Part shown: positions 8,309 through 27,994 of the stretch, one piece after another | How positions within the stretch are numbered: position 1 is the first letter of the stretch | Layout: each line of letters begins with the position of its first letter | Origin: Cyanobacteria bacterium CG_2015-22_32_23 | GTDB lineage: Bacteria; Cyanobacteriota; Cyanobacteriia; Cyanobacteriales; Cyanobacteriaceae | Assembly: GCA_009993045.1 (NCBI GenBank) | Contig: JAACUG010000083.1 | Span: 1 to 64,000 of the forward strand | DNA: 64,000 bases | Direction of reading: 5' to 3' | The notes under the pieces: generated by a model | The model's database searches: none | What the model was told of the DNA's origin: nothing | The model's input: the letters and a program-made list of their open reading frames with translations, nothing else | Position numbers and translations under genes: made by a program

Positions 8309-8527
8309 TTTACCCCTACACCACCAAAGATTTTATAGTTAACGGATGGTAAAATTAAAGGACATGGGCCATAAGAAACTAACCAAAAAATATTTATGGA
8401 AATCTTAAGTTTTCCTTACATTAACTTTACTTTATTTTGGAAAAATGTAAAAATAGATACAGAAATAAAAAATATTTTAGCAATTTTAAACAAAAAAATT
8501 ATATCTATAACCTAAAGAGAAAATAAT

Positions 8528-8917
8528 ATGAAAATGAAATATCGTGGCAATCAATATAAATCAGAAACTTCCGTGCTGGAAATGAAAGAAAGTGACATTA
8601 TCGGCAAATATAGAGGTAGTGAATGGAGTTATAAATTACCCAAACATATTCCACAACTTCAACCTAAATTATTTTTAACCTATCGTGGTACGAGTTATAG
8701 TACTTGCCCTAATGCTATTCCTTTGATGATGGAGACAAAAACACCCATAACTACTTCTCATCTTGTCACTACGGTAGCAGAATGTAATTTAGAGCAAGTA
8801 CATTTATCTAACTTGAGAAGAAACTTAGAAAGAAGAATCAAAGTGGCACAAGAAAACCACAATGATTATTTATTAGAAATGTTGAAACAAGAATCTCAAC
8901 AATTAGCCGTTAACTAA
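8528..8917 (+). CDS. DUF4278 protein with three YRG motifs
   Basis: A 129-residue soluble protein with the short DUF4278 motif (K/T-YRG-x-x-Y/W) three times: KYRGNQY (4-10), KYRGSEW and TYRGTSY. A charged helical C-terminus follows (about 90-129, LRRNLERRIKVAQENH). DUF4278 proteins are common in cyanobacteria and have no established function. A purine-rich stretch (AAAGAGAAAAT) just upstream can serve as ribosome binding site. It converges on eno with a 4-bp gap between the stop codons. Confidence 0.8.
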   Translation: MKMKYRGNQYKSETSVLEMKESDIIGKYRGSEWSYKLPKHIPQLQPKLFLTYRGTSYSTCPNAIPLMMETKTPITTSHLVTTVAECNLEQVHLSNLRRNLERRIKVAQENHNDYLLEMLKQESQQLAVN

Positions 8918-22833: not shown

Positions 22834-24522
22834 ATGATTAAAAAACTTTATTACGGTGATAATTTAGACATTCTTAAAAATCATATTAGTGATGAAATAA
22901 TAGATTTAATTTATCTTGATCCTCCTTTCAATTCTCAAGTAAATTATAACGTTATTTTTAACACTCCAAAAGGAGAAAAATCTGAGGCACAAATTACTGC
23001 TTTTGAAGATACTTGGACATGGAATATTGAGTCAGAAAGATGTATCCAAGATTTAAAACAAATTAGAGGAGATTTAGCGGAATTATTAGATTTATTAGTA
23101 CGCACTTTAGGTAAAAATTCCCTATCAGCTTACTTAGTAATGATGGCAATTCGGTTAGTAGAATTACATCGAGTTTTAAAGCCTACAGGTAGTTTATATC
23201 TTCATTGTGATCCTACTGCATCTCATTATTTAAAGATGATTTTAGACATTATTTTCGAGGCTAAAAACTTTAGAAATGAGATTATTTGGGAAAGAAGTAA
23301 AAATCGTTCTTCTATCAGTAAAAGTCTTCGTAAAGCCCATGATGTAATTTTATTTTATAGTAAGTCAAATAATTATATTTTTAACCTATTATATAAACAA
23401 TTATCAAAGGCATCTTTAGAAAATTATCGATACGAAGATGAAAAAGGAAAATATCGTTTAGTGCCTTTATTAGTAAGTGGTAAAAGAAATGGAGAAACAG
23501 GTAAAGTTTGGCGAGAAATTGATCCAAATAAACAAGGCAAATCAGGTATGCACTGGGTAACAATACCAGAAAAGTTAGAAGAATATGATCGACAAAATTT
23601 GATTATTTTTTCTAAAAACAATATTCCTAATTTAAAATATTATCTTGAAGATAATTCTGGAGTTCCATTAAGTGATAATTGGTATGATATACCTTTAATT
23701 TCTTCAAATTCAAAAGAATCTTTAGGTTATCCAACTCAAAAACCATTAAAATTATTAGAGAGAATCATCGAATCAAGTAGTAATGAAAATGACCTAATTT
23801 TAGATCCTTTTTGCGGTTGTGGTACAGCAGTTCATGCCTCCGAAAAATTAAATCGTCAATGGATTGGTATTGATATTACTCACCTTGCAATTTCCCTCAT
23901 TGAAAAACGTTTACGAGATGCTTTTAGTGAAAAATATTTAGATAATTCGGAAGATTTAATCAAGAAAAAAACAGACTTTTTTGAAGTAGAAGGTACACCA
24001 AAAACTTTAGATGCCGCCGTAGATTTATTTAACCGAGACGCTTATCAATTTCAATGGTGGGCAATCTCTCTGGTTAACGCTCAACCTTATCAAGGTAAGA
24101 AGAAAAAGGGTGCTGATTCTGGTATTGATGGTATTATTTATTTCGATGATTTTGATAGTAAAAAAAGTGAATCTGTTATCAAAAAAATTATTGTCAGTGT
24201 TAAAGGTGGTAAAAATATTAATGTATCCATGATTCGTGATTTACGAGGCACAATGGAAGCAAATAACGCTAGTATGGGGTTTTTTATTACTCTTACTTCT
24301 CCCACAAAACCGATGATTCAAGAAGCAGCAAAAGCAGGTTTTTATCAAGCAGGAAATGGGAAAAAATATCCAGTAATTCAAGTCTTTAGTATTGAAGGTT
24401 TAATTAATGGTAATGAAGAAGCAAAATATTATGATTTAAGTTGGGGAAAAAGTACTTTTAAACAAGCACAAAAAGAGCGAGAATCTAATGGAAAACAAAT
24501 AGAAATTAACGGTATTTATTGA
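22834..24522 (+). CDS. DNA methyltransferase fused to an Mrr-type endonuclease-like domain
   Basis: Residues 1-350 are an N4/N6 amino-methyltransferase of the beta class. The catalytic motif DPPF is at 29-32 (YLDPPFN) and the SAM-binding motif LDPFCGCGTA is near 323-332, the motif order of type III Mod and related enzymes. The remaining 210 residues resemble the Mrr_cat/PD-(D/E)xK fold, with GADSGIDGIIYF near 427-438 and IIVSVKGG near 451-458. The usual Q/E of the VQVK motif is Ser. One chain could therefore modify and restrict DNA, or recognise methylation. No separate Res or specificity gene is adjacent. It lies directly after sufB and looks acquired. Confidence 0.85.
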   Translation: MIKKLYYGDNLDILKNHISDEIIDLIYLDPPFNSQVNYNVIFNTPKGEKSEAQITAFEDTWTWNIESERCIQDLKQIRGDLAELLDLLVRTLGKNSLSAYLVMMAIRLVELHRVLKPTGSLYLHCDPTASHYLKMILDIIFEAKNFRNEIIWERSKNRSSISKSLRKAHDVILFYSKSNNYIFNLLYKQLSKASLENYRYEDEKGKYRLVPLLVSGKRNGETGKVWREIDPNKQGKSGMHWVTIPEKLEEYDRQNLIIFSKNNIPNLKYYLEDNSGVPLSDNWYDIPLISSNSKESLGYPTQKPLKLLERIIESSSNENDLILDPFCGCGTAVHASEKLNRQWIGIDITHLAISLIEKRLRDAFSEKYLDNSEDLIKKKTDFFEVEGTPKTLDAAVDLFNRDAYQFQWWAISLVNAQPYQGKKKKGADSGIDGIIYFDDFDSKKSESVIKKIIVSVKGGKNINVSMIRDLRGTMEANNASMGFFITLTSPTKPMIQEAAKAGFYQAGNGKKYPVIQVFSIEGLINGNEEAKYYDLSWGKSTFKQAQKERESNGKQIEINGIY

Positions 24523-24569: not shown

Positions 24570-24610
24570 TGTACGGTATCGTACAGACAATTCCGTAATA
24601 TTGCTAACAT
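24570..24610 (+). promoter_or_regulatory. NtcA-type promoter upstream of first crp-like gene
   Basis: TGTACGGTATCGTACA at 24570-24585 is a perfect TGTA-N8-TACA palindrome, the extended NtcA box. TAACAT at 24605-24610 fits the TA-N3-T -10 element and lies 20 bases after the TAC half-site, within the range known for NtcA-activated promoters. The flanking AA before and GACAA after are shared with the second site at 25463. A Crp-family regulator other than NtcA, including the adjacent gene product, could also use it. Confidence 0.65.
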
Positions 24611-24646
24611 AATTATGTATGGATATTAAGTTTTGAAAATATACCC

Positions 24647-25363
24647 TTGAGCAAATATAAATTATCTCCCGTTAATCAATTATTAAGGACTTTACCCATT
24701 GAGGAATATCAAAGACTTGCACCCCATTTACAAGAATTGGTATTAGTGTCAGGTCAAGTGTTACACGAACCCTATGAAGAAATTAAGTCTGTCTATTTTC
24801 CCATTACTGCCATGATTTCTCTGGTATCTATTATGGAAAATGGCTCAACTACAGAAATTGGCTTGATAGGCAATGAAGGAATGATTGGATTACCGATATT
24901 TTTAGGAGGAGAATACACCATTAGTCGTGCCATTGTGCAAATGTCGGGCAAAAGCTGGAAAATAAGCTCAGATATTGTCTTGCGTGAATTTAAGGAAGCA
25001 GGTACATTACAAAAAATATTACTTCTTCATACCCAAGCTAGATTAACTCAAATTGCCCAAAGTGCTGCTTGTAATCGTCAACATAAAATTGAAGCACGAT
25101 TGGCACGATGGTTATTATCAGTCTATGATTGCGTCTTAAAAGATGAATTAGACTTGACTCAAGAATTTATTTCTAATATGTTAGGTGTTCGTCGTGCAGG
25201 AGTAACTATTGCCGCTAATGCTTTACAAGATGCAGGAATAATTCGTTATAACCGAGGTAAAATTGTTATTCTTGATCATAAAAAACTTGAAGAAACTTCC
25301 TGTGAATGTTATCGAGTTGTACAAAAAGAATTTTTACGATTACTCGGATCTCGTAGGGGCTAA
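24647..25363 (+). CDS. Crp/Fnr-family transcriptional regulator, paralogue 1
   Basis: A 238-residue regulator. The N-terminal jelly roll (about 15-130) carries VYFPITAMISLVSIMENGSTTEIGLIGNEGMIGLPIFLGG. A C-terminal helix-turn-helix carries LGVRRAGVTIAANALQDAGI and a terminal TSCECYRVVQKEF. This subgroup lacks the cAMP-binding RxS motif and its ligand is unknown. The only plausible start is TTG at 24647, without a clear Shine-Dalgarno. The gene sits 37 bp after an NtcA-type promoter. It is closely similar to the gene at 27278, with which it brackets a diguanylate cyclase. Confidence 0.85.
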   Translation: MSKYKLSPVNQLLRTLPIEEYQRLAPHLQELVLVSGQVLHEPYEEIKSVYFPITAMISLVSIMENGSTTEIGLIGNEGMIGLPIFLGGEYTISRAIVQMSGKSWKISSDIVLREFKEAGTLQKILLLHTQARLTQIAQSAACNRQHKIEARLARWLLSVYDCVLKDELDLTQEFISNMLGVRRAGVTIAANALQDAGIIRYNRGKIVILDHKKLEETSCECYRVVQKEFLRLLGSRRG

Positions 25364-25462
25364 TAAATAATTAACAATTGGGTATTAACCATCAATAATC
25401 GAAGTAAAATGCTAGAGAATGAAGGTAAAATAACTATCAACTATGAATAATAAAATATCTAA

Positions 25463-25505
25463 TGTACCATACAGTACAGACAAAATTTAAGAATACAACT
25501 AAAAT
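25463..25505 (+). promoter_or_regulatory. NtcA-type promoter upstream of diguanylate cyclase
   Basis: TGTACCATACAGTACA at 25463-25478 matches TGTA-N8-TACA perfectly, and TAAAAT at 25500-25505 (TA-N3-T) follows 22 bases after the TAC. This is the canonical class II NtcA promoter layout. A start near 25512 would give a leader of about 157 nt before the GGDEF gene. AATGTAC...GTACAGACAA is shared with the site at 24570. The rest of the 305-bp gap is AT-rich and holds nothing else I can name. Confidence 0.65.
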
Positions 25506-25668
25506 TAAATTAGACTAAATTGTTCTTAATAATATATCAAATAGTGTTAGGGCTTACCAGCTATTACCTCTTTTAATTAAAAATTTTTACAGCGTATTTT
25601 AGATACATAAAATATATACAGATCAGTCTAGGTAAATTTTAAATAGTTATAAGCAAGAGGATTTTATT

Positions 25669-27165
25669 ATGACGTATCAAGTTTTTAACTCTACTTTACC
25701 CATTGTGAAAACAGAAATTGATCAGTTTTTAAAAAATTATTCTAGTGACCATTATTATAAAAAAGCATTATCTATTCCTTATTTTCGTCAAAAATTAATT
25801 GCTAAAATTCTCAATATAATTCCTAATAAACATATCATCATTGATGAGTGTTATAATTTCGCCGATGATTTAACTTTTTGTATTGGTTCATTAGAAGAAC
25901 AATTGTTAATTAATAAGCAAATTATGGATAATTTAAATCAAATTGTTGAAGAATATAATCAATTTAATAAAACTCATAATAACCAAAATTATAACTATCC
26001 AAAACAAAGTACAATTAACCTAAATGAACTGTTTTGGTGGATTAGATTTGATACAGTAAAACCTTTTGCTACTTACTATTTTGGTCCTTTTGATAGCGTC
26101 TCAGAAGCCTCTAAAAATTGTAGTGGTTATCTTGAAGACTTAATGGCAGAAAATGCTCAAGAAATTAGTTTTTCTTTTCAATTTATGAATCCTCCGTCAT
26201 TGACTGTTATTAATGATATGGAAGATTTACAAATAGAAAATGAACAATTATTAGAAAGTTTATGGAATACTGAAAAAGAAAATAAGTATTATGAAAATCT
26301 ATTTTTAAGTTCTCCTGATAGTTGCTTAATTATCAATCAAGATAACATCATAACAGTGGTAAATAAAAATGCAGAAATACTGCTTAAAACATCTAAAGAA
26401 AAGTTAGTCAATCAACCTTTAAATTCTTTTCTTAATGCTTCTAATATAGATAGTTTTTCTCATTTTCTTCTTTCCTTAAACAGCAAAACTGATCAAGATC
26501 ATAAACAATCTTTTCTTAGTTTAAATTTATTATTACCTGATAAATCTACTCTTAATGTGAGCATGAAAATATCAGCCATAAACAATCATCATAATCATAT
26601 TATCGGTTGGTATTTATCTTTTCATGATGTAACTGAACTTCAACAAAGACAAGATGAACTTTATCATCAATCCCGTAATGATTGTCTAACAAATTTACCA
26701 AATCGCCGCTCATTATTAGAATTTTTAGACAGTATTTTAAATGAAGCAGAAAAAAACTATTCTAGTCAATTTGCTGTATTATATTTAGACATCAATAAGT
26801 TTAAAATAATTAATGATACTTTTGGACACTTAGTAGGAGATCAAGTTTTAATTACTTTAGCAAAACGATTAATTACTTGTGTCAGAAGTTTTGACCATGT
26901 CGCTCGATTGAGTGGTGATGAATTTATGATTGTTCTTAGTCATATTCATTCTACCGAAGAAGCCAGAGATTGTGCCAATCGGATACAAGAATCATTATCA
27001 AACTGTTTTCATATTGATGACCATGATATTATGGTTAGCGTTAGTATTGGTATTGTTATTGGAACTCCTAAAGTTTCTAAAATATCTACTTTGTTAGCTA
27101 ATGCTGATATAGCGATGTATCAAGCAAAATATAATGGACAACTTTTTTCCATGTATCGTTGTTAA
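25669..27165 (+). CDS. Diguanylate cyclase with DUF1816 and PAS domains
   Basis: A 498-residue soluble signalling protein. Residues 1-95 are helical and unrecognised. Residues about 119-180 match DUF1816 (LFWWIRFDTVKPFATYYFGP...YLEDLMAENAQEI...PPSLTVI), a small cyanobacterial domain of unknown role usually seen in short stand-alone proteins. A PAS domain spans about 205-322, and a GGDEF domain about 330-497 with the active-site loop RLSGDEF (SGDEF at 415-419), a variant compatible with c-di-GMP synthesis. No EAL domain and no RxxD inhibitory site is obvious. A good AAGAGGATTTT ribosome site precedes the ATG. It is flanked by two crp-like genes. Confidence 0.9.
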   Translation: MTYQVFNSTLPIVKTEIDQFLKNYSSDHYYKKALSIPYFRQKLIAKILNIIPNKHIIIDECYNFADDLTFCIGSLEEQLLINKQIMDNLNQIVEEYNQFNKTHNNQNYNYPKQSTINLNELFWWIRFDTVKPFATYYFGPFDSVSEASKNCSGYLEDLMAENAQEISFSFQFMNPPSLTVINDMEDLQIENEQLLESLWNTEKENKYYENLFLSSPDSCLIINQDNIITVVNKNAEILLKTSKEKLVNQPLNSFLNASNIDSFSHFLLSLNSKTDQDHKQSFLSLNLLLPDKSTLNVSMKISAINNHHNHIIGWYLSFHDVTELQQRQDELYHQSRNDCLTNLPNRRSLLEFLDSILNEAEKNYSSQFAVLYLDINKFKIINDTFGHLVGDQVLITLAKRLITCVRSFDHVARLSGDEFMIVLSHIHSTEEARDCANRIQESLSNCFHIDDHDIMVSVSIGIVIGTPKVSKISTLLANADIAMYQAKYNGQLFSMYRC

Positions 27166-27277: not shown

Positions 27278-27994
27278 TTGTATAAAGTGCAAAATAACCT
27301 AATTTTAGATAATCAAATTTTAGCTGTAATACCTAAAGAGCAATATCAAGCACTTTTTGCTAATTTAGAAAATGTCTCTCTAATATCAGGACAAGTTATA
27401 TATAAGTTACACCAAAAAATTGATCATGTGTATTTCCCCCTTCATTCTATGATTTCTTTAGTATCAGTATTAAAAAATAAAGCTACTACGGAAATCGGCT
27501 TAATTGGGAATGAAGGATTTGTAGGACTTCCTGTCTTTTTAGGTGGTAATTATGCCACCAGTGACACCATTGTGCAAATACCAGACAGCGCCATGAGATT
27601 AGAGGCAAAAATATTTAAAGAAGAGTCTCACCGTATCGGAAAACTTCAAGAAATATTATTACTCTATACTCAGGCTAGAATTACCCAAATATCTCAAAAC
27701 GCTGTTTGTAAATGTCATCATCCTATTAACAATCAATTTGCTTGTTGGCTACTATATGCCCATGATTGTGTTAATCAAGATGAATTACCTTTAACTCAAC
27801 AATTTATCGCCCAAATGTTAGGAGTGCGTCGGGCTACTGTTACTCTTGTGGCACAAAAATTTCAAGAAAAAGGGATTATCCGTTATGCTCGTGGTAACAT
27901 TACAATCTTAAACCGAGATCTTTTAGAGTCTAATGCTTGTGAATGTTACGATTTTGTCAAGTCAGAATTTTCCCGATTATTGAATTTTACTTAA
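27278..27994 (+). CDS. Crp/Fnr-family transcriptional regulator, paralogue 2
   Basis: A 238-residue paralogue of the gene at 24647, with the same length and matching blocks: VYFPLHSMISLVSVLKNKATTEIGLIGNEGFVGLPVFLGG, LGVRRATVTLVAQKFQEKGI and SNACECYDFVKSEF. Sensor-domain divergence is mainly in the 100-165 region. The start is TTG at 27278 or the in-frame GTG at 27287; neither has a strong ribosome site. No NtcA-type palindrome is present upstream, so it may rely on readthrough from the GGDEF gene 112 bp away. It converges on hemF. Confidence 0.85.
   Translation: MYKVQNNLILDNQILAVIPKEQYQALFANLENVSLISGQVIYKLHQKIDHVYFPLHSMISLVSVLKNKATTEIGLIGNEGFVGLPVFLGGNYATSDTIVQIPDSAMRLEAKIFKEESHRIGKLQEILLLYTQARITQISQNAVCKCHHPINNQFACWLLYAHDCVNQDELPLTQQFIAQMLGVRRATVTLVAQKFQEKGIIRYARGNITILNRDLLESNACECYDFVKSEFSRLLNFT

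Follow-up and report, generated by a model that had tools for sequence, protein, structure and literature searches.

Two palindromes in the window (the whole 64,000-nucleotide stretch of cyanobacterial DNA analyzed here), one 5' of a Crp/Fnr-family gene, crp1, and one 5' of a diguanylate cyclase gene, dgc, are quite probably operators (consensus GTACGnTAnCGTAC) of a Crp1 subfamily protein that would control its own gene, dgc and, through a third site, a haem-protein operon. A Crp1 dimer would bind 5' of its own gene and 5' of dgc, and one signal would set both the level of Crp1 and the synthesis of c-di-GMP; in the same genome, Crp1 would also read the site before an operon of DUF4079 and Tll0287-like haem-protein genes. 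A sequence-only reading of the region had offered two wirings. An autoregulated Crp/c-di-GMP module appears well supported by position, conservation and covariation between recognition helix and operator. The other wiring, in which NtcA would switch on both genes under nitrogen limitation, is contradicted by the half-site, by a glnA control and by the distribution of the motif. Binding by Crp1, the direction of control and the start sites given below are what we infer from such comparisons.

Genes of the crp1-dgc locus

The genes had been annotated correctly, with a Crp-like gene at 24647-25363 and a DUF1816-PAS-GGDEF gene at 25669-27165, both on the forward strand. The former, crp1, encodes a Crp/Fnr-family protein of 238 aa from a TTG start, the exact position of which is uncertain; its product is the proposed binder of both operators. 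Crp1 matched HTH_Crp_2 above the cut-off, and scored 27.4 bits against a cut-off of 27.5 for cNMP_binding. Its AlphaFold2 model (pLDDT 89) has an ordinary Crp fold, for which Foldseek returned GlxR as the best match (4.5e-13), with NtcA also among the matches. The predicted structure thus combines a beta-roll of the cNMP-binding kind with a Crp-type winged helix, as found in Crp/Fnr factors. No conserved Arg-Ser pair was seen at the expected place of the phosphate-binding cassette in Crp1 alignment A2, judged by eye against E. coli CRP, and the ligand of Crp1 is probably not cAMP.

The product of dgc comprises an uncharacterized N-terminal domain followed by DUF1816, PAS and GGDEF domains. It carries the signature SGDEF, with an RxxD product-inhibition site five residues before it, and SGDEF or GGDEF, the signature of a cyclase, was present in all six orthologues checked and in a Synechocystis relative. 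The N-terminal domain (window 25669-25920), which in Hydrococcus and Crocosphaera also exists as a small protein of its own, had no Pfam or PDB match, and its interpretation as a ComFB-like c-di-NMP receptor was dropped. A second Crp-like gene, crp2 (27278-27994, forward strand), encodes a paralogue with about 52% identity to Crp1, and a palindrome was not found upstream of this gene.

Operators and promoters

The palindromes lie where they had been placed, TGTACGGTATCGTACA at 24570-24585 and TGTACCATACAGTACA at 25463-25478, on the forward strand, and the flanks they were said to share (AA on the 5' side, GACAA on the 3' side) are present at both. So are the TA-N3-T elements, TAACAT (24605-24610) beginning 20 bases past the first palindrome and TAAAAT (25500-25505) beginning 22 bases past the second. 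Predicted operator 1, 5' of crp1, has the core GTACGGTATCGTAC (24571-24584), and predicted operator 2, 5' of dgc, the core GTACCATACAGTAC. Each adjoins the hexamer CAGACA (24584-24589 and 25477-25482, forward strand), which occurs on the gene-facing side only and may be either a -35-like element or an extended contact. The -10 region of crp1 presumably falls within 24605-24613, as TAACAT (24605-24610) or CATAAT (24608-24613), and transcription is predicted to start near 24619. The -10 box of dgc, TAAAAT, lies 17 nt past CAGACA, and the predicted start of this gene's transcript is near 25512.

At all seven promoters of dgc orthologues, TAN3T stands at an identical offset from the operator, and the same offset recurs at both haem-gene promoters. 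Because of this constancy, the center of the operator is predicted to lie at about -41.5 from the start site at the dgc and haem promoters, which matches class II activation. Since the operator sits at this activator position, activation of the cyclase and haem promoters is likely. The promoter of crp1 itself is less uniform: in relatives it has a stronger, TATAAT-like box that is 1 to 3 bases closer to the operator, whereas the best -10 box of the window genome is one base further away. Because the -10 box of relatives is stronger and the spacing varies, either self-activation or self-repression could occur there.

Such promoters also bring up an alternative, in which Crp1 represses by occupying the -35 region, CAGACA-N17-TAN3T being simply an ordinary promoter. 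The gene-facing GACA might belong to a weak -35 element; together with the 17-nt spacing it resembles a weak sigma-70 promoter, and near-perfect TATAAT boxes are found in the crp1 promoters of relatives. However, the hexamer agrees with TTGACA at four of six positions only, and a center near -41.5 is the usual place of a class II activator. We regard repression by Crp1 at these promoters as somewhat unlikely.

Conservation within the family

If the palindromes matter, they should recur in relatives, as the sequence-only reading had proposed to check; they do: each of the seven family genomes with an intact crp1 has one 5' of crp1 and another 5' of dgc. These are the window genome and G083, G117, G173, G013, G041 and G215, in which the crp1-dgc pair is syntenic (the contig of G215 is truncated), and in each GTAC-N6-GTAC precedes crp1 and again dgc. 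The palindrome of crp1 in G083 has been displaced from the gene by an insertion sequence; in this same-genus genome, a transposase gene lies between operator and crp1 (L018, about 300-1520; L023). Elsewhere in the family, G147 keeps only remnants of crp1, and the gene is broken in G064, where no dgc orthologue was found. The G064 copy is in two pieces about 1 kb apart, with the operator intact (L028, L035).

Alignment of 17 sites from the crp1, dgc and haem-gene promoters of the family yielded the consensus GTACGnTAnCGTAC, followed on the gene side by (A/G/C)GAC, the xxGAC being kept in 14 sites. The C at core position 4 and the G at position 11 were invariant in all 17, and apart from the -10 box almost nothing else was conserved.

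A third site before a haem-protein operon

The third exact flanked site in the window genome is on contig C69, 5' of a DUF4079 gene that stands between the promoter and a Tll0287-like gene. The latter lies near the contig end, and its reading frame is short relative to those of relatives. In G117, the Tll0287-like gene has an orthologous promoter with GTACGATAACGTACAGACA. Of the loci with the operator before a Tll0287-like c-haem gene (L001/L299 on contig C69; L211/L298), that of G117 has a rhodanese-domain gene next. Tll0287 proteins that stand alone are haem proteins of the c type, probably with a function in redox processes (PMC12889525, preprint). The haem target appears to be lineage-specific, because G041 and G064 have relatives of the Tll0287-like gene without the site. 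A possible weak site in G215, GTACAACATCGTAC, before a small gene preceding the Tll0287-like gene, was not counted, its flank being missing.

Conservation beyond the family

A wider survey, covering 80 loci that the Crp1 alignment retrieved and 23 further ones, placed the palindrome before crp1-type genes of Hydrococcus, Richelia, Calothrix, Rivularia, Plectonema, Crocosphaera, Cyanothece, Mastigocoleus and others, often with a second copy just 3' of crp1. Within about 500 bp upstream of crp1, the exact motif occurred at 27 of 53 loci, and at 33 if up to one mismatch was allowed; ten rounds of dinucleotide shuffling gave none, as did the reversed pattern. With up to one mismatch, 24 of the 53 also had it just downstream. 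Because the loci are related to one another, and at least one contig is present in duplicate (L022/L089), the counts do not represent independent occurrences. Among 293 genomes from the order, 19 of the 44 with crp1 had the exact motif, versus 18 of the 249 without (p = 1.4e-8), and in eight of those 18 the motif adjoins a more distant, weaker or broken crp homologue. Synechocystis-type genomes keep the crp1-dgc pair, yet no clear palindrome was found in them.

The genes that follow crp1 differ: in the family of the window genome, a cyclase; in Hydrococcus and Crocosphaera, small proteins that resemble the Dgc N-terminal domain; and in Nostocales, far downstream, a small zinc-ribbon protein. 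At three loci (L100, 8288-8503; L094, 8266-8478; L098, 8238-8450), about 500 bp with no clear gene separate the operator 3' of crp1 from the zinc-ribbon protein. Many Oxalobacteraceae loci (L112-L168) carry TGTTCG-N4-C(G/A)(G/T)AC some 200 bp 5' of the stretch that matched crp.

Identity of the binding protein

Recognition helix and half-site vary together in three classes: RRSGVT(V/I/T)AA with GTACG, RRTGVTEVA with GTCCG (Pleurocapsales), and RRESITAAA with GTTCG (Oxalobacteraceae), where the site is less palindromic. When aligned with the GlxR helix RETVNK, the varying residues correspond to CRP 181 and 185, which contact the base pair that differs between the half-sites. This covariation favors Crp1 as the candidate binder, although helix classes follow phylogeny and the pattern may rest on two changes only; the operators also satisfy the minimal NtcA consensus.

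Binding by Crp2, or competition between both paralogues for the operators, would fit the presence of crp2-type genes beside crp1 in most loci. Nevertheless, the sites precede crp1-type and not crp2-type genes, the change in the half-site tracks the helix of Crp1, and G173, which gave no crp2 match, keeps both sites. A role of Crp2 (27278-27994) as the binder is therefore improbable.

Less probable still, and by a long way the less favored of the two original wirings, is that NtcA binds both sites, in which case the crp gene and the cyclase would both come on under nitrogen limitation. The description of these regions as textbook NtcA promoters stood in part: a GTAN8TAC core is there, followed about 22 bp further on by TAN3T, at a -10 spacing that fits class II activation (PMC3898017), and the genome encodes NtcA; the half-site and the distribution did not fit. 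As in the class II promoters of NtcA, a Crp/Fnr factor, a 14-bp palindrome, TAN3T and a center near -41.5 are involved, but the sites here are GTACG with a central TA, whereas those of NtcA are GTAT[CA]-like (PMC3898017). In Anabaena ChIP-seq data, T and C were favored at positions 4 and 5 of the GTAN8TAC boxes (PMC3898017); the sites at this locus have C at position 4 and mostly G at position 5. Upstream of glnA, which NtcA typically controls, 12 of 13 family genomes had a GTAN8TAC at -80 to -91, all with T at position 4 (GTATCAATAGCTAC, GTATAAAAAGTTAC and others), in the same genomes in which C4 and G11 never vary at the crp1-type sites. The match at glnA of the window genome lies elsewhere and is doubtful, and the regions upstream of ntcA, taken as a further control, were uninformative, with a single GTAN8TAC match in one genome. 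NtcA was found in all 15 family genomes (above the family cut-off in 14), whereas none of the seven without an intact crp1 and its operator had the exact motif, the distribution of which follows crp1, not NtcA. Similar sites, finally, occur 5' of the homologous gene in Oxalobacteraceae, where the cyanobacterial NtcA is not expected.

Rarity of the motif

By itself, TGTA-N8-TACA is near chance in the AT-rich window (three occurrences versus 1.3 expected), and GTACN6GTAC alone is no commoner than its reversed control in the family genomes; because of the latter, only the extended motif is informative. AATGTAN8TACAGACAA has three exact places in the 3.27-Mb genome, where base composition would lead one to expect roughly 0.03, and none with one mismatch genome-wide, a background with two and three mismatches lying beyond. 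TGTACN6GTACA occurs at four places, the three flanked sites and one inside purE (L004), which was taken as chance. Given this rarity, the cross-genus conservation and the controls, a coincidence or a mobile repeat, to which only the near-chance frequency of the short palindrome would lend itself, is hardly credible.

Discussion

The cyanobacterial LexA box, AGTAC-N4-GTACT, has GTAC half-sites in common with the operator described here, but its spacer is of four bases instead of six. Clp of Xanthomonas and Bcam1349 are Crp-family regulators with c-di-GMP as a ligand, and the Clp structure 3iwz was one of the Foldseek matches of Crp1. A Crp fold is coupled to c-di-GMP signaling in those cases as well; there, however, c-di-GMP is the ligand, whereas Crp1 probably controls an enzyme that makes it. 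The sites of SyCRP1 and AnCrpA (TGTGAN6TCACA; PMC2633013) are also of the Crp family and share the 16-bp frame (5+6+5) and a TAN3T about 22 bp downstream. They differ in having TGTGA in place of TGTAC; the recognition helix is different, and the cAMP-binding residues are apparently not conserved in Crp1. A full-text search of partial coverage on DUF1816, PtrA, and Crp and c-di-GMP in cyanobacteria yielded no account of the module, and the NCBIfam PtrA score was far below its cut-off.

GTAN8TAC on its own often serves to predict NtcA regulons, and a look-alike operator can here be told apart from that of NtcA. The analysis provides a testable operator, regulator and set of targets for a Crp subfamily that many cyanobacteria possess, and it would assign to a diguanylate cyclase a regulator dedicated to it. 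The natural variants of operator and helix are material for working out a recognition code, and the transposase insertion in G083 is a natural test of promoter displacement. More speculatively, there may be a widespread, hitherto undescribed Crp/Fnr subfamily with an operator code of its own, in which the third half-site base (A, C or T) is determined by the residues that align with CRP 181 and 185. Responding to a new ligand, this subfamily would serve as a self-regulating switch for c-di-GMP synthesis and a haem/redox protein.

Two other features of the window deserve mention. Directly 5' of crp1 (22834-24522) is a gene for an N6_N4_Mtase DNA methylase fused to an Mrr-type nuclease domain. 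A third TGTA-N8-TACA, at 8446-8461, lies 5' of a 129-aa gene at 8528 (beginning MKMKYRGNQY); it is without GTACG half-sites and could be of the NtcA type.
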